64,000 bases of DNA from a bacterium (GTDB lineage Bacteria > Myxococcota_A > UBA9160 > UBA4427). Positions within the stretch are counted from its first letter, which is position 1, and each line of letters begins with the position of its first letter. Below are positions 38,477-64,000 of the stretch, piece by piece. The stretch lies in contig JANSYR010000006.1 in the NCBI GenBank assembly GCA_024742285.1, positions 1 to 64,000 on the forward strand, in the 5' to 3' direction. The position numbers were made by a program, and so were the translations under genes. The notes below the pieces were generated by a model. The model saw nothing but the letters and a program-made list of their open reading frames with translations, was not told where the DNA came from and made no database searches.

Positions 38477-38552
38477 GCCGACGTAGCTCAGCTGGTAGAG
38501 CAGCTCACTCGTAATGAGCAGGTCGTCCGTTCGAGTCGGATCGTCGGCTCCA
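38477..38552 (+). tRNA. tRNA-Thr (anticodon CGU)
   Basis: Full cloverleaf: acceptor GCCGACG / CGTCGGC, D-arm GCTCAGCTGGTAGAGC, anticodon stem GCTCA / TGAGC with loop CTCGTAA (anticodon CGT in DNA, reads ACG), T-loop TTCGAGT. The discriminator T is followed by encoded CCA (38,550-38,552) and a T5 run. A tyrosine recombinase begins 126 bp downstream, making the 3' end a likely attachment site. Confidence 0.97.
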
Positions 38553-38678
38553 TTTTTCCTCTTCAAAGTCAGGTAGATGGAGATTCCTCCCGCCCGGCAC
38601 GGCTCGTCTATGTGTGACGAACTGTGACGCGAGCGGCCTTAGGCCCGGACTCCGGGCACCTAGGGAAGGAATCTGCAC

Positions 38679-39761
38679 ATGGCTGAGGTCACACCGCGTC
38701 ACAAGCGAGGCACGGTTCGTCGGCGCGGCAACCGGTGGCAGGTCGACGTTGTGGTGGATGGCCGTCGTGTTCGGCGGAGCGCGCCAACGCGCGACGCTGC
38801 GAATGAGTTGCTCGACCAATTGCTCACGCGGATCAACGCCCAGGACCACGGCGCGTCACCGATCGACCACGGAGAGCAGGCCGCCGACCACACTGAACCG
38901 ACGGTTTCTCTGGTCCTCGAGCGATACCTCGCCAGCACTCGGCTCCATTGCCGACCCCGTACGATCAGGACGACCGAAGCCGCGATCCAGCGGCTCGACC
39001 AGTTCTTCGCGCAAGCGCTTGCGTCCAGTCTCTCTAGGACTGAGATCGATCGGTATGCCGCCGCCCGGCTGCGCGACGGCGTGGGGCCGCATACTCCGAA
39101 TCGCGAGCTCGCCTGCCTGCGGGCTGCCTTGGTTCAGGCGCGAGACGATGGACTCATTGAGCGAGCACCGCGGATTCGGATGCTTCGAACGGTCCGGGCG
39201 GTGCCTAGAGTCCTCTCGAAGCCGCAGATCAAGCAGCTAGTCACCGATACCGGCGAGTTCTCGGTCGTCTTCGCACTCGCGGCCGGAGCGGGACTTCGCG
39301 CAGCGGAGATGCGCTGGCTCACCTGGGCCGACGTCGATGCACCACGAAGCTCCATCATCATTCGAGCGAAGGGGACCTGGCGGCCCAAGACACATGCCGA
39401 GCGCGAGGTGCCTATGTCGCCGCGACTCGCTGAGCGACTCCAAGCGCACCGCGCGGCTCGAAGTTCGTCAGAGGACTGGGTACTGGCCGTTCCTCGGCAC
39501 CACGGACAGTGGAGCGAATCGGGCCTCAGTCACGCCGCAAGACGGCACGCCCAGGAAGCGAAAGTCTGGGCACCGGGCTGTAAACCGCTCCACGACCTCC
39601 GTCGATCCTGGGCGTCCCACCTCCTTGCTGCGGGCACGCCGATCGACACTGTTCGTCGCCTTGGCGGATGGGCCAGCAACTCGACCCTCGAACAGTTCTA
39701 TCTAGCTCCAACTACCGAGTCTCTCGACAAGGCGACGCGCGCCAGCAGAGACCTTCTTTAA
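38679..39761 (+). CDS. tyrosine recombinase/integrase next to tRNA-Thr
   Basis: 360 residues: N-terminal Arg-rich arm-binding region, core-binding domain (about 75-170), catalytic domain with Arg in GAGLRAAEMRWLTW, HDLRRSWASHLLAAG (HxxR), GGWASNSTLEQFY with Trp at the second-His position and nucleophile Tyr. All catalytic positions seem present. Position and orientation directly after tRNA-Thr are typical of the integrase of a genomic island. I could not find a second copy of the tRNA 3' end in the window, so the far attachment site is probably beyond base 64,000. Confidence 0.92.
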   Translation: MAEVTPRHKRGTVRRRGNRWQVDVVVDGRRVRRSAPTRDAANELLDQLLTRINAQDHGASPIDHGEQAADHTEPTVSLVLERYLASTRLHCRPRTIRTTEAAIQRLDQFFAQALASSLSRTEIDRYAAARLRDGVGPHTPNRELACLRAALVQARDDGLIERAPRIRMLRTVRAVPRVLSKPQIKQLVTDTGEFSVVFALAAGAGLRAAEMRWLTWADVDAPRSSIIIRAKGTWRPKTHAEREVPMSPRLAERLQAHRAARSSSEDWVLAVPRHHGQWSESGLSHAARRHAQEAKVWAPGCKPLHDLRRSWASHLLAAGTPIDTVRRLGGWASNSTLEQFYLAPTTESLDKATRASRDLL

Positions 39762-39847
39762 CAGCGACTGAATATCACGGGGAATAGATCCGAGAAACAT
39801 CCCGAACCCACCGACCGGATCGCTGGCATTGAACTGCTCCTCCGGGA

Positions 39848-41088
39848 ATGCACGGCGAGATGGCCTTGGAGTCAGCCTGTGGACTCGACCTCTCGCGAGC
39901 GACGCTCGCGCACTGGATGGTCAAGATGGGCGACCTGGTCGAACCGCTGGTTGATCGGATCACAAGCATGAGATCCGCGCCTACGACTTCGTTTAGTGCG
40001 ATGAGACGCCCTTCCAGGTCTTGAAGGAGCCCGGGAAGACGGCCCAGAACCAGTCCTATCTCTCGGCGCTTCGCGGCGGTCCTCAGGAGCACCCGCTCAT
40101 CTACTGTGAGTACGACCCTTCGCGGAGCGGTGAAGTGCCGAAGCGGCTGCTTCGCGGGTTCGAAGGGTTCCTGCAGACGGACCGCTACGAAGGCTATGCC
40201 GCGATCGGACGCGAACCCAAAGTCGTGCACGTGGGCTGTTGGGCGCACGCGCGACGGAAGTTCGACGAGGCGCTTCGCGGACAGAGGTCGAAGAGCAGGA
40301 AGAGTTCGAAGAAGACGGCGAAGGAGAGCGTGGCGCGAAAGGCGATGGGCCAGATCCAGGCGCTGTATCGGATCGAGAGGAAGCTCAACGACGCGTCTGC
40401 TGAGGAACGTCACCGCGTGCGGCAGGCCGAGTCTGTGCCGTTGGTCGAGGCGCTTCGCGCCTGGCTGGACGACTCGATCGACCGAGTCCCGCCGCAAAGC
40501 CTGACCGGGAAGGCGATGGCCTACCTCGACCGTCAGTGGCCGAAGCTCGTTCGCGTGTTCGCGGATGGCCGGATCCCGCTCGACACGAAACGCGTTGAGA
40601 ACGCAATCCGACCGTTCGTGGTCGGACGGAAGAACTGGCTGTTCGCCGACGCGACGGCGGGATCTCGAGCCAGCGCCAACCTTTACGGGCTGGTCGAGAC
40701 GGCCAAAGCGAACGGGATCGAGCCTTGGGCGTATCTGCGGCACGTGTTCGATGCCCTGCCCAGGGCGACCTTGCCCGATCAGGTCGAGGCGCTGCTGCCC
40801 CAAAGCATCGATCCGGCGCTCATCCGGCACCCGGCCGCAGGACGTAGTTCGTCGAGCGCTTACCCTACTACCTCCATTCTGGAAGCCCAAAGTGGTGCAG
40901 GAAAACGCAGCACGTCACTCCGATCGTTGACAAAGGGGATAGGCCTTCGAAACGGCCCAGCTCACCTAGTCTACTTTCTGGGGGACGGGAGGGCAGAGCA
41001 CCCGAAATCGTCGTTTCTCCATCGATGCGCAAAAACTAGTAGGTGGCTGTTGAGTAGCTCAGACCCATCAGCATCGAGATTCGTCTAG
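39848..41088 (+). pseudogene. IS66-family transposase remnant (TnpC C-terminal part)
   Basis: From 39,848 one frame reads LDLSRATLAHWMVKMGDLVEPLVDR, the IS66 motif before the first catalytic Asp. The chain then continues in another frame, hits an in-frame TAG (39,994-39,996) just before CDETPFQVLKEPGKTA, and runs on with TDRYEGYAAIGR, the Glu motif TKRVENAIRPFVVGRKNWLF and a normal IS66 C-terminus near 40,850; the remaining codons to 41,088 look unrelated. The N-terminal half and the accessory ORFs are missing. The DDE residues survive but the gene is dead. Confidence 0.88.
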
Positions 41089-56821: not shown

Positions 56822-57652
56822 TCATCTCGCGCATCTAAGCCGACCTTCCGCGTTCGCGGAGCAACGCCTAGATCTGGGTGGGCCGCAGGCTTCGAACCTG
56901 AGGGTCGGGGGTTCGAATCCCTCCCGGCGTGCCATTGAAATCAATGGGTTAGGCGACTCCCCCACCCCATCGATTTCCGGCCGCGCCGTATATCGCCGTC
57001 TTGCGCCGCCAAGATCTGCGAAATTCATATCGGACTCATCGCCCTTGACCACGTGGGCGTACACGCGAAGCGTGAGCGCTGGGTCGGAGTGGCCCAGGAC
57101 CTGCGCCACCCACTTAACGCTCTTGCCGGCATCGAGCGCCATCGTTGCAAAGGTATGGCGGGTACAGTGGAGCTTGAGTGGGCGAACTCCGTGCTCATCC
57201 TGGGCTCGGATACGGACGCGATCCCACACGCGCTGATGGTTTCGCGGCGAGAGCTGCGTGCCCGCGCGAGACGAGAAGATCCACTCAGGAATCTCCGCCC
57301 AACCGTTGTCGATTCGCTGCTGGCGACGAAAAGCGAGCAGCGAGAAGAACTCGTCCGCCACCACGGGCGACATCGCAACGTGCCGAGACTTGCCGCTCTT
57401 GGGAGTGCTCACATGGCCCTTGTCCAAGAGCGACCTTCGAATCGAGATTCTCATCGATTCGAAGTCGACATCGTCCCATTTGAGGCCCAAAAGCTCGCCG
57501 CGGCGAAGCCCGGTGTTGAAGAGGATGACAAGCTGGGGCGCAAACTGCGGCTCGTGCTCGCGTGCCGTTGAGATCAGATGCTCCACGTCCGACCGCGACC
57601 ACACGTCAACCGTGGAAACTTCGGTCGCTGCCACCGTCGCTATCCGACGCAT
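56822..57652 (-). pseudogene. truncated tyrosine recombinase reading into a tRNA remnant
   Basis: 276 codons. Only the catalytic domain remains: Arg in FNTGLRRGELLGLKW, HCTRHTFATMALDAG, LGHSDPALTLRVYAHV with the Tyr. The core-binding domain is missing. Upstream, NPARDIGEL is in frame but cut off by a TGA, while LRALGFAGLM lies one frame away, so removing one A from an AAA run near 57,682 would rejoin them. The last about 30 codons (from ARREGFEPPTLRF) are antisense to a tRNA 3' half. Confidence 0.8.
56864..56934 (+). pseudogene. tRNA remnant overlapping second integrase
   Basis: From about 56,886 the sequence is the 3' half of a tRNA: anticodon arm GCAGG-CTTCGAA-CCTG (candidate anticodon TCG), T-arm GGGGG-TTCGAAT-CCCTC, acceptor strand CCGGCGT, discriminator G and CCA. 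Upstream, ACGCC (56,864-56,868) could pair with the 3' GGCGT, but the next two acceptor pairs fail and no normal D-arm is visible. I read it as a decayed or attachment-site tRNA. The integrase frame on the other strand reads through it. Confidence 0.6.
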
Positions 57653-58290: not shown

Positions 58291-58398
58291 GCGACACCCT
58301 GCGGGGTGCGACGGACCCGATAGTTGGCCCCGCGATCGGGTGGGCTCCACACTTGCAGCACGCGCACAGAATCCCCGCAGCTTGGCCTTGGAGAAGCG

Positions 58399-59622
58399 AT
58401 GGAAGAAGGTCGGAGCCCCACGTTCGAACTCTCGCTTCTGCCAGAGAGCGGGGAGCATCACGCACTCTGCAGAGAGTATTGGCGGACTGACGAGTCCGGT
58501 GCGTTCGTCCACAAGGTTGCCGACCTTGCGAGCCAGTTCGGCGTTCCGTCTGCGCGAGTGCTCAAGACAGTCACAGCGGCGTCGATTGCGCGCTCGACCG
58601 AGTTTGGCTGCGCCGATTGCGGAATCGGTCGAGTCGTGAACAGCCGCGCCAACCTGACCGAGATCCGGCGGGACGGTAGGCATCGCGAGTGGGTATGTGC
58701 TGATTGCGCGAACGACCGGCGCAGTGCAGCAGCGGAAAGGGCCGAGCGGGAGGCGGATCGTCGGTACGAGATTCTTGACGCCGCTGCGTACCGGCGCGAA
58801 CCCAGGCATCTCGATCGGGACGGAGTCACGTTTCGCGAAGCGGTGTTCCTCGTTAGCGCGCTTCGGTCGCTGGCATCGGAGGACTTCTCCTTTCTGTTCC
58901 CGTACGACGGACATGGAGGAACCCTCGCGCCAACGGGGCGCCTCGCGCGTGTGATTCTTGACGAGCTCTTTGAGGGACGCATTCTGAGCGTTCATCCAGG
59001 CTCATCCGCAGATTCCGTCACGATTGAAGATGAGGCATTCAAGAGCTTCATCCCATTTCGCGTGCATTGGCTACTGCTCCGAGACGAAGACGGTCCATCG
59101 GTAGCGAAAGTACTTGAGCAGCTCGAGTCCGCTATCGCCGACCCAGATTGGCAAGACCTTCACTCTTTCGAAGTCGCGGAACTTCAGCGTCTGGTCGCAC
59201 TGCATGAGTGCCTCCAGTACCTCGAAGTCGTACTCGATGACCACGGTTTCACGTTTAGTCCGGGCGACAGGACCGTGCACGTGATTCAGACCGCGCTGCG
59301 AAGCTTCTCTGTCGGGCAGGTCTACAGCTTCATCTGGAGGGCCGCCAAGGATGCGGCGGCGTTCTATCTGCGAGAAGCGAAGTCGCGTAAACATGCGGCG
59401 AACGTTGTGCCTGGCGCGATTCAACGCATGGTCGAGCGAGCCCTCGCGCAGGGATGGGAGGTAAACGCCTTCCGCCGAGACTTCCGCGCACCTGAGAGCG
59501 TTCTTGGCCAGGTGCTATTCAGCCACGCACTGAAGATTCCCGACATGGGTTTCACGACGATCCCGCCAGGCGAGCCTGAGGCTGATCAGGCGGGAGAGCA
59601 CGAGACAGGGCCCGACTTCTAG
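58399..59622 (+). CDS. zinc-ribbon protein of unknown function
   Basis: 407 residues. Cys pairs C71-C74 (FGCADCG) and C100-C103 (WVCADCAN) form a zinc ribbon about residues 68-107. A charged helix (AAAERAEREADRRYEI) and a mixed alpha/beta region follow, then a helical C-terminal part with SVGQVYSFIWRAAKDAAAFYLREAK. The start ATG (58,399) has GGAGAA upstream; a longer frame from 58,324 has no support. No enzyme motif recognised. Its position beside the HD/ImmA/NDT genes suggests an accessory-island or defence context. Confidence 0.78.
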   Translation: MEEGRSPTFELSLLPESGEHHALCREYWRTDESGAFVHKVADLASQFGVPSARVLKTVTAASIARSTEFGCADCGIGRVVNSRANLTEIRRDGRHREWVCADCANDRRSAAAERAEREADRRYEILDAAAYRREPRHLDRDGVTFREAVFLVSALRSLASEDFSFLFPYDGHGGTLAPTGRLARVILDELFEGRILSVHPGSSADSVTIEDEAFKSFIPFRVHWLLLRDEDGPSVAKVLEQLESAIADPDWQDLHSFEVAELQRLVALHECLQYLEVVLDDHGFTFSPGDRTVHVIQTALRSFSVGQVYSFIWRAAKDAAAFYLREAKSRKHAANVVPGAIQRMVERALAQGWEVNAFRRDFRAPESVLGQVLFSHALKIPDMGFTTIPPGEPEADQAGEHETGPDF

Positions 59623-60066: not shown

Positions 60067-61815
60067 ATGCAGGCATGGAAACTCATCAATCCTGACCTTC
60101 CGGGCGTGCCCGGCCCTCCTATCCCGCCCGCGTGGGATATCCCGCCGCAACTGCTCCAACCGGCGCGGACGAACACAGACGCCATCCACGGCGACATCGC
60201 GACCACGGGCCTCGAACAGCTGATCATCGACAGCCCTGGATTCCAACGGCTCCGCGGTCTTCGTCAATTGGGCACCGCGCATCTCGTCTACCCCGGTGCG
60301 ACCCACACCCGGTTTCAGCACTCCTTGGGCGCGCTCCACGTGGTCCAGGAACTCTACGAAGAGGCGCTCGATAGTCGCGGGTCCAGGGAGGCTCGAGACG
60401 ATCTGTTTTTCGAGTGGGCACAGGCGGGCCCCACCTACGCCGCGAATCACATCGCGCGCTCGCTCGTGCTGGCGAGGCTCGGCGCACTGCTGCACGACTA
60501 CTGCCACGTGCCTTACGGCCACACGATCGAAGACGACGCTGAACTCGCTGTCAGGCACGACGCGAACGGACCGCGTTTCGAGGATCTCTGGGAGCGCCTG
60601 GGCCCCAAAGTGCACGCGGCTATCAAGCCGCCGCTATTGAGAGAGCTCCGCCACCTCGTGCTCTCCAAAGAACAGACGGCGGAGGGCGCGGAACCCTTTG
60701 GGTCCGAGTACCCATTCGTCGCTGATCTGGTCGGCAACACGATCTCCGCCGACCTAATCGACTACCTGTGGCGCGACTACTACTACACCGGCTTGCCGGC
60801 CGGATTCGGTCGCCGGCTCTTTTCGTCGTTCATGGTCACACAGAGCGACAACCCCGACTACCCGAAGCGAGTTGCGCTCCGCATCTACAAGGATGACCGC
60901 TACAGGGCCGACGTCACGACTGAGGTGCTCAAGTACCTGCGCTACCGCTACGAGCTCGGCGAGCGTGTGCTCAACCACCACGCCAAGGTCGCTGCCGACT
61001 GCATGCTCGAACGCGCGATTTCAATCTGGATCCACGAGACCAGCCCCGAAGCAGTCGAGCAGCAGCTTCGAAAACTCGGTGACGACGCCCTTCTCGACAA
61101 TCTCTCGGCATCGAAGTTTCCCGCGGTCGCCGAGCTCGCAAGCGGCGTTCGCGAACGGAAGCTCTACAAGTCGAAGTATCGGACCTCTGGCGTCGAGGAG
61201 CTGATTCGAGCGGACCAGATCTTCGCCCGGTACCGCACATCGGCGGCGCGGGCCGAGGTCGAGCGCACCGCCGCACGCTACGCCCAAATCCCGGCGCACT
61301 ACGTTCTCCTCTCGGTTCCCGATCCGGCGATGCGCCTCAAAGCAGCCGGGGTACTCGTACAGGCGAAGGGCAGTGTGGTCCCGCTCAAGAACTGGGACGC
61401 GCACCATGGCGCCCACGCGGCCGAGATCCTGCGCTCACATCGCGAGTTGTGGTCAATCCAGCTCTACACCCATCCCGACCTGACCGACCATCAGCGCGAA
61501 ATCGTCGCGGCGAGTGTGGCCGATATCATGCACATTGAGTGGTTCGGGCCGACCGCCGCCGAGATCGGCTCGCACCGTATCCATCTGGCGGCGCGCGACG
61601 CCGCTCTTGAGAACGACCTTACGCTCGAAGACCATCAGCGAATGATCGACACACAGCATCGCGAAGACCTCAACGTAGCGACGCACGAAGATCTCAAGAG
61701 ATCGATGGTCGACGCGTTGTCGGAACACGCGCCGATGTCCGAGCAAGACGATGATCTACCGGACTCCGACGACGGGGATGATGAGGACGACCCGGGACAG
61801 GGTTCGATGTTCTAG
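60067..61815 (+). CDS. HD-domain phosphohydrolase, SAMHD1/dGTPase-like
   Basis: 582 residues. The N-terminal half matches dNTP triphosphohydrolases: DAIHGDIATTGLEQLIIDSPGFQRLRGLRQLG, here noted in two parts as DAIHGDI and FQRLRGLRQLG; metal ligands H85 (TRFQHSLG), H143-D144 (LGALLHDYCHVPYGH) and D232 (ISADLIDYLWRDYYYTG), all intact. The C-terminal half is helical and ends in an acidic Asp-rich tail. It probably hydrolyses dNTPs or related nucleotides. Its stop overlaps the next start as TAGTG, so it is coupled to the ImmA/IrrE peptidase. Such enzymes can starve phage of dNTPs. Confidence 0.9.
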   Translation: MQAWKLINPDLPGVPGPPIPPAWDIPPQLLQPARTNTDAIHGDIATTGLEQLIIDSPGFQRLRGLRQLGTAHLVYPGATHTRFQHSLGALHVVQELYEEALDSRGSREARDDLFFEWAQAGPTYAANHIARSLVLARLGALLHDYCHVPYGHTIEDDAELAVRHDANGPRFEDLWERLGPKVHAAIKPPLLRELRHLVLSKEQTAEGAEPFGSEYPFVADLVGNTISADLIDYLWRDYYYTGLPAGFGRRLFSSFMVTQSDNPDYPKRVALRIYKDDRYRADVTTEVLKYLRYRYELGERVLNHHAKVAADCMLERAISIWIHETSPEAVEQQLRKLGDDALLDNLSASKFPAVAELASGVRERKLYKSKYRTSGVEELIRADQIFARYRTSAARAEVERTAARYAQIPAHYVLLSVPDPAMRLKAAGVLVQAKGSVVPLKNWDAHHGAHAAEILRSHRELWSIQLYTHPDLTDHQREIVAASVADIMHIEWFGPTAAEIGSHRIHLAARDAALENDLTLEDHQRMIDTQHREDLNVATHEDLKRSMVDALSEHAPMSEQDDDLPDSDDGDDEDDPGQGSMF

Positions 61816-62642
61816 TGGACACCACCGCCTGGTACCACGATTTCGTCGCGCCCGAGCCCGACCCGGCAATTGCAAGACGCCTCGCCCAAGCTGTGCGCGG
61901 GAGCGCGCCCGAGACGGAGCGGATCCGGATCTCGGAAGTCGCCGAGCACCTTGGCTGCCGGCTCGTGCCGCTCCGGGGCGAATTCCGCGAGGAGGCGACG
62001 CTTCTCGTCACTAGCCAAAGCGAAGGCGCGCAGCTCCAAGTCCGCTACGGCCAGATTCTCGGCAAGGGCGGAATGCACCGCCTCCGCTTCTCGATCGCAC
62101 ACGAGCTCGGTCACACGTTCTTCTTCAAGCGAACGCCGCACGGTGCGAAGCGCGTCCGCGCCCGAAGTCGAGCTGAGGAGCGATTCTGTGATGAGTTCGC
62201 CGGAGAACTTCTCTGCCCCAAGAGCGCGATCCCGCCGCAATTCGGCCCCAATGACTGCTGGAGACTCTCGGACCATTTCGGTGTCACCCCGAGCGCCGTC
62301 GCGAACCAAGCGATTCGGGCGGGGCGATTCCCGTGGCACGGCATTGTGGGCGTCGCGTATCGGGGCAAGCCCCAAAGCGAAGACAAGATCGCGCCCCGCG
62401 TCGTCTGGGCGATGGCCCCGCGCGGTACCTACCTTCCACGCCACTACCGATTCCGTGACGGCCCTGTGGTTGAAGCCCTAGAGACCGCAAATCCAGTCGA
62501 GGGCAAGTACGCGCTCAAACGAAGCTTCGGCAGCTTCGAGACGGGCGAGTACCTCGTCGCCGCATCCCCGGGGCCGGGCCGGACCGTGATCGCGGCCTTC
62601 CGTGCCCTTGCGGAACCACAAGAGCGTGCAGCCCCTCGATAG
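61815..62642 (+). CDS. ImmA/IrrE-family metallopeptidase
   Basis: 275 residues starting at a GTG that overlaps the HD-gene stop. Zinc-peptidase motif HELGH at 96-100 and the downstream Glu-rich EERFCDEFAGELLCP helix typical of ImmA/IrrE (DUF955) proteins, which cleave repressors in phage-like or stress switches. The C-terminal about 110 residues are beta-rich and unassigned. No separate XRE regulator is seen adjacent, so its substrate is unknown; the HD protein is one candidate. Confidence 0.9.
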   Translation: MDTTAWYHDFVAPEPDPAIARRLAQAVRGSAPETERIRISEVAEHLGCRLVPLRGEFREEATLLVTSQSEGAQLQVRYGQILGKGGMHRLRFSIAHELGHTFFFKRTPHGAKRVRARSRAEERFCDEFAGELLCPKSAIPPQFGPNDCWRLSDHFGVTPSAVANQAIRAGRFPWHGIVGVAYRGKPQSEDKIAPRVVWAMAPRGTYLPRHYRFRDGPVVEALETANPVEGKYALKRSFGSFETGEYLVAASPGPGRTVIAAFRALAEPQERAAPR

Positions 62643-62764
62643 TCCATCATCGGCTCCGTGCATCGACGTGCCGCCTCACGGCGCCAGTCATCCGTGGCGA
62701 GACGGCTAATTTTCGCTACACTTTCGCCTTTCGCGCTATCCATCGAAACCCAGGGGAACGAGCT

Positions 62765-63343
62765 ATGGCACACCCGCAGGTCTATCTAGCCGGACCTGAT
62801 GTCTTTGAACGCGATCCCCAAGCCGCCGCGGAGCGATTGAAGCGGCTCTGCGCGGATCAGGGCCTCGAGGGCCTCTTCCCTCTCGATGCAGGCGTTGAGC
62901 CGGATCCCGATCTCTCGCTCTTCGCTGCGAGGATTAGCGAGGCGAACGAGAACCTTATCCGCCGTTGCGATGGCGTGCTCGCCAATCTCTCGCCCTTCCG
63001 GGGGCCAAGTGCGGATCCGGGCACCGTGTACGAAGTCGGTTTCGCTCGCGCGCTCGGCAAGCCAGTCGTTGGCTATACGGAAGCGACCGCCCTCTATGCG
63101 GAGCGCTCTCTTCGCTGGATCGAGCGCATCGACGGCAAGATCCGCCGGCGGCCGTCGGGCAGTGTCGAGGACGCCCAAGGCTACGAAGTCGAGAACTTCG
63201 GGTGCGTCGAGAACCTAATGATTGATTGCGGAATCGCTGCCAGCGGCGGGATGATAATCCGGCCGAAGGACGGCGCAGAGCCCGGCGCGATTCCGGTCGA
63301 GCTTGCCATCGAGACCCTCGCCCGAATTCTGAGGCGTGCCTAG
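62765..63343 (+). CDS. nucleoside 2-deoxyribosyltransferase
   Basis: 192 residues of the NDT family: N-terminal VYLAGPDVF, ANLSPFRGPSADPGT and catalytic Glu90 in TVYEVGFARALGKPVVGY. Family members transfer deoxyribose between bases or hydrolyse nucleosides; related domains act as NAD- or nucleotide-cleaving effectors in some retron systems. It lies 122 bp after ImmA/IrrE; a TACACT at 62,717-62,722 could be a weak -10 box. Same strand as the HD and ImmA genes. Confidence 0.9.
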   Translation: MAHPQVYLAGPDVFERDPQAAAERLKRLCADQGLEGLFPLDAGVEPDPDLSLFAARISEANENLIRRCDGVLANLSPFRGPSADPGTVYEVGFARALGKPVVGYTEATALYAERSLRWIERIDGKIRRRPSGSVEDAQGYEVENFGCVENLMIDCGIAASGGMIIRPKDGAEPGAIPVELAIETLARILRRA

Positions 63344-63358: not shown

Positions 63359-64000
63359 TCAGGCGATTCCGAAGAACCGCCGCCAGCGCCCGGTGCTGCG
63401 TTCGATCGCGATCGCAAGCGCTTTGTCGATAGCCTCATCGTCCGCATCGGCCCAGGTTTCTCCAGCCGCAATGCCGGTTTCCGCCTCTCCGTGAATGGCG
63501 TCCATGTGCAGGTGGAACGTGTCGTCCTTCTCCCAGTACTTCGTACGGGAGAGCATCTCCCACACGTCCTGGTAGGAAACGGTCTTACCGTCACCGACGT
63601 CGTGCGCGACACCAGCGAAATAGTCGCGGCGCCGCTGGCAGAGCCAGAGCCGGTAAGGCTCATCCTTGAGGACCCCTTGCTGCCAGAGAAACATCTCGGC
63701 CCAATGGAGATCGAGCAACCCACGAAAGTGCGACTCCATCTGCGCCTTGCGCATTGCGGGATCCGCGGCCGCATTCTCAGCCGCCACCCGGTCCTTGAAG
63801 ACCGCAAGATAGGAATCAAGGCACTTTAGCGTCGTATCGCGAGCGCTCTGCATCCAATGGAGACGCAGCACGCCGCCGGCGACGAGGGTGCCGATGGCCA
63901 CAAGAGCTAGATCTAGAAGTCGGACCGTCGAAAAGAGCGAATCCTCGGTCGGCTCCTTCGGCTGTTGATGTCCATGCGCCCGCTGTTGAGCCTTGAGCGC
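63359..64000 (-). CDS. membrane-anchored protein of unknown function, N-terminus beyond window
   Basis: At least 213 residues, open through base 64,000. A Gln/His-rich hydrophilic leader precedes one transmembrane helix (LLDLALVAIGTLVAGGVL) and a soluble C-terminal domain of about 170 residues rich in Trp, His and acidic residues (HFRGLLDLHWAEMFLWQQG, DTFHLHMDAIHGEAETG). No family recognised. It converges on the NDT gene, 15 bp apart. A GTG at 63,899-63,901 is inside the helix, so the real start lies further right, outside the window. Confidence 0.7.
   Translation of the reverse strand, partial: ALKAQQRAHGHQQPKEPTEDSLFSTVRLLDLALVAIGTLVAGGVLRLHWMQSARDTTLKCLDSYLAVFKDRVAAENAAADPAMRKAQMESHFRGLLDLHWAEMFLWQQGVLKDEPYRLWLCQRRRDYFAGVAHDVGDGKTVSYQDVWEMLSRTKYWEKDDTFHLHMDAIHGEAETGIAAGETWADADDEAIDKALAIAIERSTGRWRRFFGIA

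Follow-up and report, generated by a model that had tools for sequence, protein, structure and literature searches.

A recurrent pair of an HD-domain protein and an ImmA/IrrE peptidase as a candidate nucleotide-starving defence module

An HD-domain protein and an ImmA/IrrE (M78) zinc peptidase are encoded by adjoining genes in the window, i.e. the 64,000 nucleotides of DNA analysed here, and this HD–ImmA pair was found in eight places, namely seven cellular genomes and one viral contig. Because the two genes recur jointly, in most cases within mobile DNA or next to genes for phage defence, the pair looks like a new nucleotide-starving defence unit. From the protein sequences we lean, with some reserve, towards a mobile two-gene defence or toxin–antitoxin (TA)-like module in which an HD dNTPase effector is under the control of the coupled ImmA protein. 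The HD enzyme probably destroys DNA building blocks and the ImmA peptidase probably controls it. No description of the pair was found in the literature searched.

Results

The gene pair and its active sites

The genes concerned are located in the window as follows.

60067-61815, + strand: HD-domain protein, candidate SAMHD1/CloA-like deoxynucleotide triphosphohydrolase (ATG to stop, 582 aa)
61815-62642, + strand: ImmA/IrrE (M78) zinc peptidase (GTG to stop, 275 aa)
62765-63343, + strand: nucleoside 2-deoxyribosyltransferase (NDT), optional third gene (ATG to stop, 192 aa)

The HD stop codon and the GTG start codon of ImmA share one base, the last of the former and the first of the latter, and the NDT gene starts 122 nt 3' of the end of the ImmA gene. 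The HD metal ligands H85, H143-D144 and D232 were verified, the HELGH motif of ImmA begins at residue 96 and the catalytic glutamate E90 of the NDT is present. The three genes, the HD/ImmA overlap and the residues named in the first-pass annotation were all confirmed by these coordinates and the residue check. A sigma-70 promoter signal was not found (0 versus 0.6 expected). AlphaFold2 models of HD and ImmA based on two-row alignments were too poor for use (mean pLDDT 41 and 49, respectively).

The window HD protein matches Pfam HD_assoc_2 over residues 300-488 (1.6e-12) and Pfam HD below its cut-off (0.0072; 17 bits, cut-off 22), whereas its PADLOC dGTPase match is just 9.3e-4 and its TIGR01353 score 19.8 bits versus a cut-off of 152.35, which sets it apart from the anti-phage dGTPases. 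A profile of four HDs matched PDB 9mr6 (8e-38) and SAMHD1 (1e-29; several chains, about 340 residues). The likeness to SAMHD1 and to the bacterial HD structures (2o6i, 2hek, 9mr6) covers the HD core and, for SAMHD1, extends to the region after it; unlike these proteins, the present HDs have a constant ImmA neighbour. The window HD combines the H...HD...D ligands with the H/E pair (+9/+12) of SAMHD1-like HD triphosphohydrolases. H152 and E155 lie at +9 and +12 from the HD motif, which is the spacing of H117-D118/H126/E129 in CloA as given in the part of the source available.

Residues H85, H143, D144, H147, H152 and E155 are kept in all eight HDs and D232 in seven. The HD of genome G616 has an alanine at the D232 metal-ligand position, so this member may be inactive or changed. 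The window ImmA matches Peptidase_M78 (9.1e-7); three ImmA partners score below or at the M78 cut-off of 22 bits (19.2, 19.4 and 22.3 bits). HExxH is kept in all eight, and the conservation of this motif together with E121/E122 across the six aligned partners suggests that ImmA catalysis is retained.

Recurrence of the pair

The HD and ImmA ORFs overlap in seven of the eight pairs, and with such an overlap the dose of the two proteins is probably similar. Gene order varies, ImmA being first in G635. An ImmA neighbour was present for all eight of these HDs and for none of the 65 other HD homologues checked (Fisher 7e-11, a rough guide only, because the rows are related). The eight form one clade apart from the 65 others (SH-aLRT 99 in a 73-row quick tree), on which ImmA-linkage takes one label change versus a mean of 7.7 after shuffling, with none of 500 shuffles as low. 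The identities of HD and ImmA co-vary among the first six members (r = 0.94 over 15 non-independent pairs).

For the profile searches, two groups of cellular genomes and the viral contigs were used; the genome contigs were covered by one close-relative scan. The 65 HDs without ImmA come from fetched loci with the HD motif pattern and a length of at least 300 aa, after removal of identical sequences; 12 of the first 58 such loci have less than 300 nt on one side, and the viral locus L109 begins at a contig end. Loci lacking the HD pattern (e.g. L035, L039-L043, L067, L084, L086, L090, L113, L116 and L117) were left uncounted, and the ImmA profile was also run on earlier loci (ORFs of at least 80 aa) and later loci (at least 60 aa), including the pattern-less ones. 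Viral contigs scanned with the window protein and two-row alignments gave no relative. With a six-row profile they gave 12 loci, with ImmA beside HD in L106 alone, and a further profile gave five loci with the pair again only on the contig of L106. Plasmid and phage searches returned distant HDs only, none covering 80% of the query; no ImmA gene is annotated in the ten annotated plasmid/phage HD regions inspected, and the window ImmA had no match in plasmid records. L081 was not accepted as a ninth pair because the composition of its HExxH ORF is that of a membrane protein and the ImmA profile does not match it; G624, where HD is only a 230-aa C-terminal piece, was rejected too. Matches of the ImmA profile to viral loci that stayed below threshold, namely a 75-aa frame in L110/L111 (E 0.12) and a match in L116 (E 0.44), were left out of the count.

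An ordinary role of the HD in house-cleaning, as a dNTPase or other enzyme of the nucleotide pool, with the pair serving as an operon for metabolism or stress and not for defence, is improbable in our estimate. HDs matching profile A3 (E <= 1e-20) are indeed common in the phylum of the window (218 of 329 genomes), and among the loci checked, taken from the best 29 of these 218 genomes besides that of the window, none had an ImmA neighbour. The ImmA-linked clade, however, is separate and sporadic: it was absent from the other eight genomes of the genus searched and, at E <= 1e-25, a single genome out of 377 from the phylum had it.

Genomic neighbourhoods

Mobile DNA or known or candidate defence genes adjoin seven of the eight pairs, which also argues against the house-cleaning role. 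PADLOC-recognised defence genes adjoin four, those of the window being candidates (PDC) only, and recombinase or phage genes are near five (window, G635, G616, G980 and L106). In G377 the genes HmaA, HmaB and HmaC (all E = 0) and PDC-S19 are immediately upstream of the pair on the same strand. A type IIG restriction-modification (R-M) system is near the pair in G984; a C5-methylase, an REase, Vsr and a serine recombinase in G616; and an integrase and an ArdC domain in G980. In G635 an ORF resembling the window's integrase (73.5 bits) lies about 0.5 kb upstream. In the viral locus L106 the pair lies between a gpA terminase gene and an NrS-1-polymerase-like gene, each of them opposite in strand to the pair. 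The neighbourhood in G1117 ends at the contig end, and its visible part shows nothing telling. The recurrence in other genomes beside defence genes, which the first-pass annotation had proposed as a check, was thus observed. The surroundings of the window pair (integrase, 24-bp repeat and PDC-M30A/B) include the following features.

56822-57652, - strand: tyrosine recombinase, 276 aa (Phage_integrase 4.1e-25)
56866-56923, + strand: tRNA relic covering model positions 10-63 of 71 (24.9 bits with Rfam tRNA, whose gathering score is 29)
56889-56912, + strand: exact repeat of 24 bp and likely attachment site, occurring again beyond the window at contig 68205-68228
58324-59622, + strand: ORF of 432 aa with CxxC pairs, without Pfam or PADLOC match
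63359-64000, continuing to contig 64312, - strand: ORF of 317 aa, weak PG_binding_3

The tRNA relic, at which no tRNA was called by ARAGORN, sits within the 3' end of the recombinase gene. The 24-bp repeat is the sole exact direct repeat of at least 20 bases in contig 50-90 kb, and its copies bound an island of about 11.3 kb that holds HD, ImmA, NDT and a candidate defence pair; this last, PDC-M30A (TcmP-like) and then PDC-M30B (DUF5131), follows the 317-aa ORF beyond the window. Two Phage_integrase ORFs of the window, 38679-39761 (+) and 56822-57652 (-), and a further one outside it at contig 84450-85529 (+) agree with the earlier description of the region as lying between integrases. The island borders are an addition to that description.

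These surroundings would also be expected if the pair were an addiction module only, retaining its mobile element, with phage resistance absent or a by-product. The recombinase or phage genes near five pairs and the two overlapping genes, a toxin-like effector and a TA-like partner, are in line with this. The Hma, R-M and PDC neighbours and the location on a viral contig, however, suit defence as well, and an optional NDT is unexpected in a pure addiction pair. Addiction alone is regarded as unlikely.

Known systems and the direction of control

The nearest parallel to the favoured module, an HD effector with a coupled ImmA regulator, is the Rosmer TA family (RmrA/RmrT; RipAB). As far as the cited texts were available, it comprises ImmA-domain antitoxins, frequently with an HTH, that occur with varied toxins in variable gene order (PMC10440598), and in Streptococcus pneumoniae RipB, which has an HTH, antagonises RipA (PMC12795458). 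Likewise, an ImmA-domain protein is next to a toxin candidate in all eight present pairs, gene order varies and there is a link to phage defence; RmrA profiles match the window ImmA in the peptidase core only (1.8e-6). The pair differs in that its toxin candidate is an HD triphosphohydrolase, that Pfam searches of all eight ImmA partners gave no HTH match (L106 and G1117 at a limit of 1e-4) and that the top PADLOC match of the window ImmA is capP (1.1e-11), not RmrA. CapP of CapH-CapP (CBASS) was also the top match of the G984 and G980 ImmA, these and the window's being the three that were scanned. Unlike in CBASS, no CapH-like HTH gene or CD-NTase was present among the window neighbours scanned, and membership of CBASS-CapHP was rejected since its partner genes were not found at the window locus. 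Clover (CloA dNTPase and CloB nucleotidyltransferase), in the part of its description available, shares a dNTPase-type HD effector with a dedicated control gene and the H/HD/H/E spacing. In the present pair the partner is an M78 peptidase and the neighbouring window ORFs had no NTase match; Clover membership was rejected because a CloB partner was not found. The Hma/DUF499-centred BREX-related systems (PMC12839542) adjoin one of the eight pairs only, where HmaA-HmaB-HmaC is complete; in the available main text of that paper HD domain, ImmA, IrrE, dGTPase, phosphohydrolase and metallopeptidase do not occur and 'peptidase' occurs twice.

By analogy, restraint of HD by ImmA is more likely than activation. 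The SAMHD1/CloA-type HD would hydrolyse dNTPs to deoxynucleoside and triphosphate and halt DNA synthesis. ImmA/M78 would be its dedicated, antitoxin-like control partner as in Rosmer, until a change in the ImmA protein, caused by phage replication or by ssDNA, relieves the restraint. Alternatively, ImmA could be an activating sensor protease that, upon infection or exposure to ssDNA, switches HD on by cutting an unseen inhibitor or HD itself, for instance in the acidic tail. PprI/IrrE is indeed activated by ssDNA and cleaves DdrO (PMC10904395, in the part available), HExxH and E121/E122 are kept in the six aligned partners, and the ImmA-linked HDs have long, variable C-terminal tails, that of the window being acidic and ending in GQGSMF. 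However, these tails show no conserved cleavage site, the ImmA/IrrE targets named in the literature portions available are HTH-type repressors whereas neither partner gene carries an HTH match, and in the Rosmer precedent the ImmA protein does the opposite and restrains the toxin. This makes activation a rather unlikely, though serious, alternative.

The NDT as an optional third gene

The first-pass annotation had proposed HD, ImmA and NDT as one module. The trio does occur beyond this strain, since an NDT also adjoins the pair in G980, but there it lies 96 nt upstream of HD in an orientation unlike that in the window, and no other locus has one. Being adjacent in only two of eight loci with differing orientation, the NDT counts as accessory rather than core, and the trio was rejected as an obligatory unit. 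The window NDT matches Nuc_deoxyrib_tr (PF05014) with 4.1e-33 and 114.4 bits (cut-off 28.8). PF05014 was above cut-off in two of the six genomes searched, with one copy each, both adjoining the pair; in G984 a match below cut-off (20.1 bits) is on a different contig. A retron with an NDT-like effector was also considered and dropped, as the partner genes were not found: no RT family was present among the island proteins scanned. At gathering scores Rfam gave nothing but a tRNA in the window.

It is a substantial possibility, falling somewhat short of an even chance, that the NDT simply travels in the island, unrelated to the pair, and that its proximity in two genomes reflects chance or a common island preference. 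The differing positions (122 nt after ImmA versus 96 nt upstream of HD) fit this, and so does the low similarity of the two pair-linked NDTs (BLASTP 4e-11). As 111 plasmid records contain NDT homologues and none matches the window ImmA, NDT clearly occurs without the pair. Conversely, both NDTs are the only above-cut-off PF05014 gene of their genomes, random placement within 5 kb in the 3.1-Mb G980 genome has a probability of about 0.003 (before allowing for island clustering), and the NDT reaction fits the product of HD. Where present, the NDT might thus perform a second step, taking the free deoxynucleoside from HD and removing or swapping its base, which would leave salvage kinases unable to rebuild the dNTP. 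No description of HD and NDT acting in series was found in the literature searched.

Clamp-like motifs at the C-termini

A clamp-like motif of the Qxx[LM][FL] type was noticed post hoc in five of the eight pairs, within 14 residues of the C-terminus.

HD tails: window, QGSMF; G377, QDTLL
ImmA tails: G984, QIQLF; G1117, QMPLF; G980, QHLTLF

It is not in the tails of G635, G616 and L106 and never in both partners of one pair. G980, G984 and G1117 are close kin, so the motif represents three lineages. Its frequency (5/16 tails) exceeds that in 189 ORFs (6/189, p 0.0005), a background of mechanically picked long, mostly non-overlapping frames rather than annotated genes, and that in other HD tails (5/64, p 0.02); for a stricter form the values are 4/16 versus 4/189 (p 0.0015) and 2/64 (p 0.013). 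Conceivably, HD and ImmA form a single complex that docks on the replication sliding clamp (DnaN) via the tail of either partner and starves forks of dNTPs once ImmA control is released by phage replication, with NDT, where present, breaking the resulting deoxynucleosides and so blocking salvage. A precedent for docking is the Rosmer toxin RipA, which acts on the DnaN pocket (PMC12795458, as far as available). We consider this extension doubtful.

Discussion

If the HD–ImmA pair is indeed a defence or TA-like module, it would compactly unite two themes, the depletion of dNTPs known from Clover, dGTPase and SAMHD1, and the ImmA-controlled toxins of Rosmer. HD followed by NDT in series would render the loss of dNTPs irreversible.

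The HD-ImmA-NDT genes and their catalytic residues

The first-pass annotation had placed three genes on one strand as a candidate nucleotide-targeting defence module, and the positions and the shared plus strand were confirmed from the ORF coordinates:

60067-61815, +, SAMHD1/CloA-like HD-domain protein (HD); Pfam HD_assoc_2, with Pfam HD below its cut-off
61815-62642, +, M78 zinc peptidase (ImmA); Pfam Peptidase_M78, GTG start
62765-63343, +, nucleoside 2-deoxyribosyltransferase (NDT); Pfam Nuc_deoxyrib_tr

The GTG start of ImmA overlaps the HD stop codon by a single base. All the catalytic residues that had been cited (H85, H143-D144 and D232 of HD, HELGH of ImmA and E90 of NDT) were found in the sequences. 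A profile built from four HD proteins matched the solved structures of the HD protein 9mr6 (8e-38) and of SAMHD1 (1e-29). Counted from H143, the window HD has H152 at +9 and E155 at +12. This is the spacing of H126 and E129 from the H117-D118 motif in CloA of the Clover system (PMC12265719).

The HD-ImmA pair recurs in other genomes

The closest relative is a pair with overlapping ORFs in the Thermoleophilia MAG CAIYOD010000076.1 (G377; stretches L002/L029), with 47-49% identity for HD and 37% for ImmA. Profile searches yielded further pairs in the cellular genomes G635, G616, G980, G984 and G1117 and on the viral contig L106; neighbour checks found an M78-type ORF beside HD at each additional locus. 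Recurrence beyond this strain was found for HD and ImmA, at seven further loci, but NDT lay beside them in G980 only. HD and ImmA share a single nucleotide in the window pair, in G980 and in G984, 4 nt in G1117 and 8 nt in G377; the G616 overlap is also 8 nt if its likely start is used. ImmA precedes HD in G635, with an overlap of 32 nt; in L106 the overlap is 32 nt at the mechanical start and absent with a later ATG. The G616 HD (L024) carries Ala in place of the metal ligand D232. No ImmA neighbour was seen for any of 65 other HD homologues, which were non-identical proteins of at least 300 aa with the HD motif pattern; 12 of the first 58 had less than 300 nt on one side, and the viral L109 starts at a contig end. 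A lone C-terminal piece of a pair-type HD, with neither HD motif nor ImmA, lies in genome G624 (L099 9386-10078) next to a large ORF judged by eye to be relaxase-like, and is probably a decayed copy.

In a 73-row HD tree the eight ImmA-linked HDs fell on one side of a branch (SH-aLRT 99), and ImmA linkage required one change versus 7.7 in shuffles. An earlier 64-row tree with six pairs gave the same grouping; both are quick trees with several long branches, two of them pair members, rows about which the tree tool warns. HD and ImmA identities co-vary (r = 0.94; 15 non-independent pairwise comparisons). The frequency of the HD was counted in overlapping genome sets: in the window's phylum a pair-type HD occurred in 1/377 genomes (E <= 1e-25), and matches were found in 9/396 genomes of the phylum of G377 (E <= 1e-18; three pair-type), 16/299 of the class of G616 (E <= 1e-20; four pair-type), 4/66 of the class of G635 (one pair-type) and 3/201 of the order of G980 (E <= 1e-50; all three pair-type). 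G377 and the genome of the window seem to fall in different phyla, because the listed genome samples of the two share no member. In the trees the window HD nests among those of G377's group, and this nesting and the patchy spread fit horizontal transfer of the pair.

A Qxx[LM][FL]-type C-terminal peptide was present in one partner, never both, of five of the eight pairs (window, G377, G980, G984 and G1117). The peptide resembles the form found in clamp-binding proteins. It was spotted post hoc and represents three lineages, and is for these reasons treated as a speculative lead apart from the main reading. It stands at 5/16 pair tails versus 6/189 ORFs and 5/64 other HD tails; none of 20,000 shuffles of the tails reached 5/8 pairs.

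Genomic neighbourhood and the probable island

In G377 a single strand carries HmaA, HmaB and HmaC (E = 0 each), the PADLOC candidate PDC-S19 (DUF3644), HD and ImmA. A system named Hma is counted among the DUF499-centred BREX-related systems in PMC12839542. The G984 pair adjoins a type IIG R-M system. In G616 a C5-methylase, a restriction enzyme and Vsr lie at about 1 kb and beyond, and a serine recombinase about 6 kb away, the 18-kb stretch having 44.6% G+C. An integrase and an ArdC domain occur within about 7 kb in G980. About 0.5 kb upstream of the G635 pair is an integrase-like ORF (L023 11638-12264, -; 73.5 bits to the window's integrase), with a tRNA-Leu also near; the window pair likewise has an integrase nearby. 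On L106 (IMGVR_UViG_3300037184_000560) HD-ImmA is flanked by a gpA-type terminase and an NrS-1-polymerase-like gene and runs against the strand of both, an arrangement expected of a cargo gene. The G1117 contig ends near ImmA, and the remaining stretch held nothing telling. Raw counts put recombinase or phage genes near 5/8 pairs and defence genes recognised by PADLOC near 4/8; 7/8 had at least one of the two kinds.

The following features accompany the three genes in the window's contig:

56822-57652, integrase; a tRNA relic scoring 24.9 bits, under the gathering score, lies within the 3' end of the gene
58324-59622, 432-aa ORF upstream of the pair with CxxC pairs, without family
contig 64792-66854 (L030 14793-16855), candidate defence pair PDC-M30A/PDC-M30B (PADLOC 3.3e-21/3e-104; TcmP-like/DUF5131)

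A 24-bp exact repeat occurs at 56889-56912, in the tRNA relic, and at contig 68205-68228 (L030 18206-18229); it is the sole exact direct repeat of at least 20 bases across contig 50-90 kb. The two copies are probable attachment sites, which would bound an island about 11.3 kb long. Its cargo comprises the three genes, the 432-aa ORF, which gave no Pfam or PADLOC match, a weakly matching peptidoglycan-binding-like ORF and PDC-M30A and PDC-M30B. Neither HD nor NDT was found in eight other searched genomes of the genus. Elsewhere in the window, at 38477-41088, a tRNA-Thr precedes a tyrosine integrase (PF00589, 5e-20) plus an IS66 transposase; this stretch is perhaps a second integration site.

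NDT and the proposed mechanism

G980 has an NDT too, found with the window NDT as query: it lies 96 nt from HD in divergent orientation (PF05014, 74 bits). PF05014 exceeded its cut-off in two of six pair genomes searched, the window's and G980, with one copy each, both beside the pair; none was present in the fetched stretches of G1117 and L106. This suggests that NDT adjoins the pair more than by chance, yet is not a core part. On a Methylocystis plasmid (L037 1046-2242), a gene annotated as a PfkB kinase matches the window NDT (2e-5) near another HD gene that lacks ImmA.

Among the literature matches listed, the HD-ImmA pair was not described; it may be described elsewhere. The most economical reading is that HD is the effector and ImmA its control partner. 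ImmA-domain proteins serve as antitoxins of the Rosmer TA systems, with variable gene order (PMC10440598). In RipAB, the RipB protein counteracts RipA, a toxin that targets the clamp DnaN (PMC12795458). An ImmA-type partner is common to Rosmer systems and the present pairs, but none of the eight ImmA partners gave an HTH match, which argues against plain Rosmer membership. By this analogy we favour that ImmA would restrain HD rather than activate it. Single-stranded DNA switches on IrrE/PprI (PMC10904395) and is therefore a possible trigger for the ImmA partner.

Free deoxynucleoside is the product of SAMHD1-type enzymes and belongs to the substrate class of NDT. For this reason HD and NDT are proposed to work in series where both are present: NDT would act on the deoxynucleoside freed by HD.
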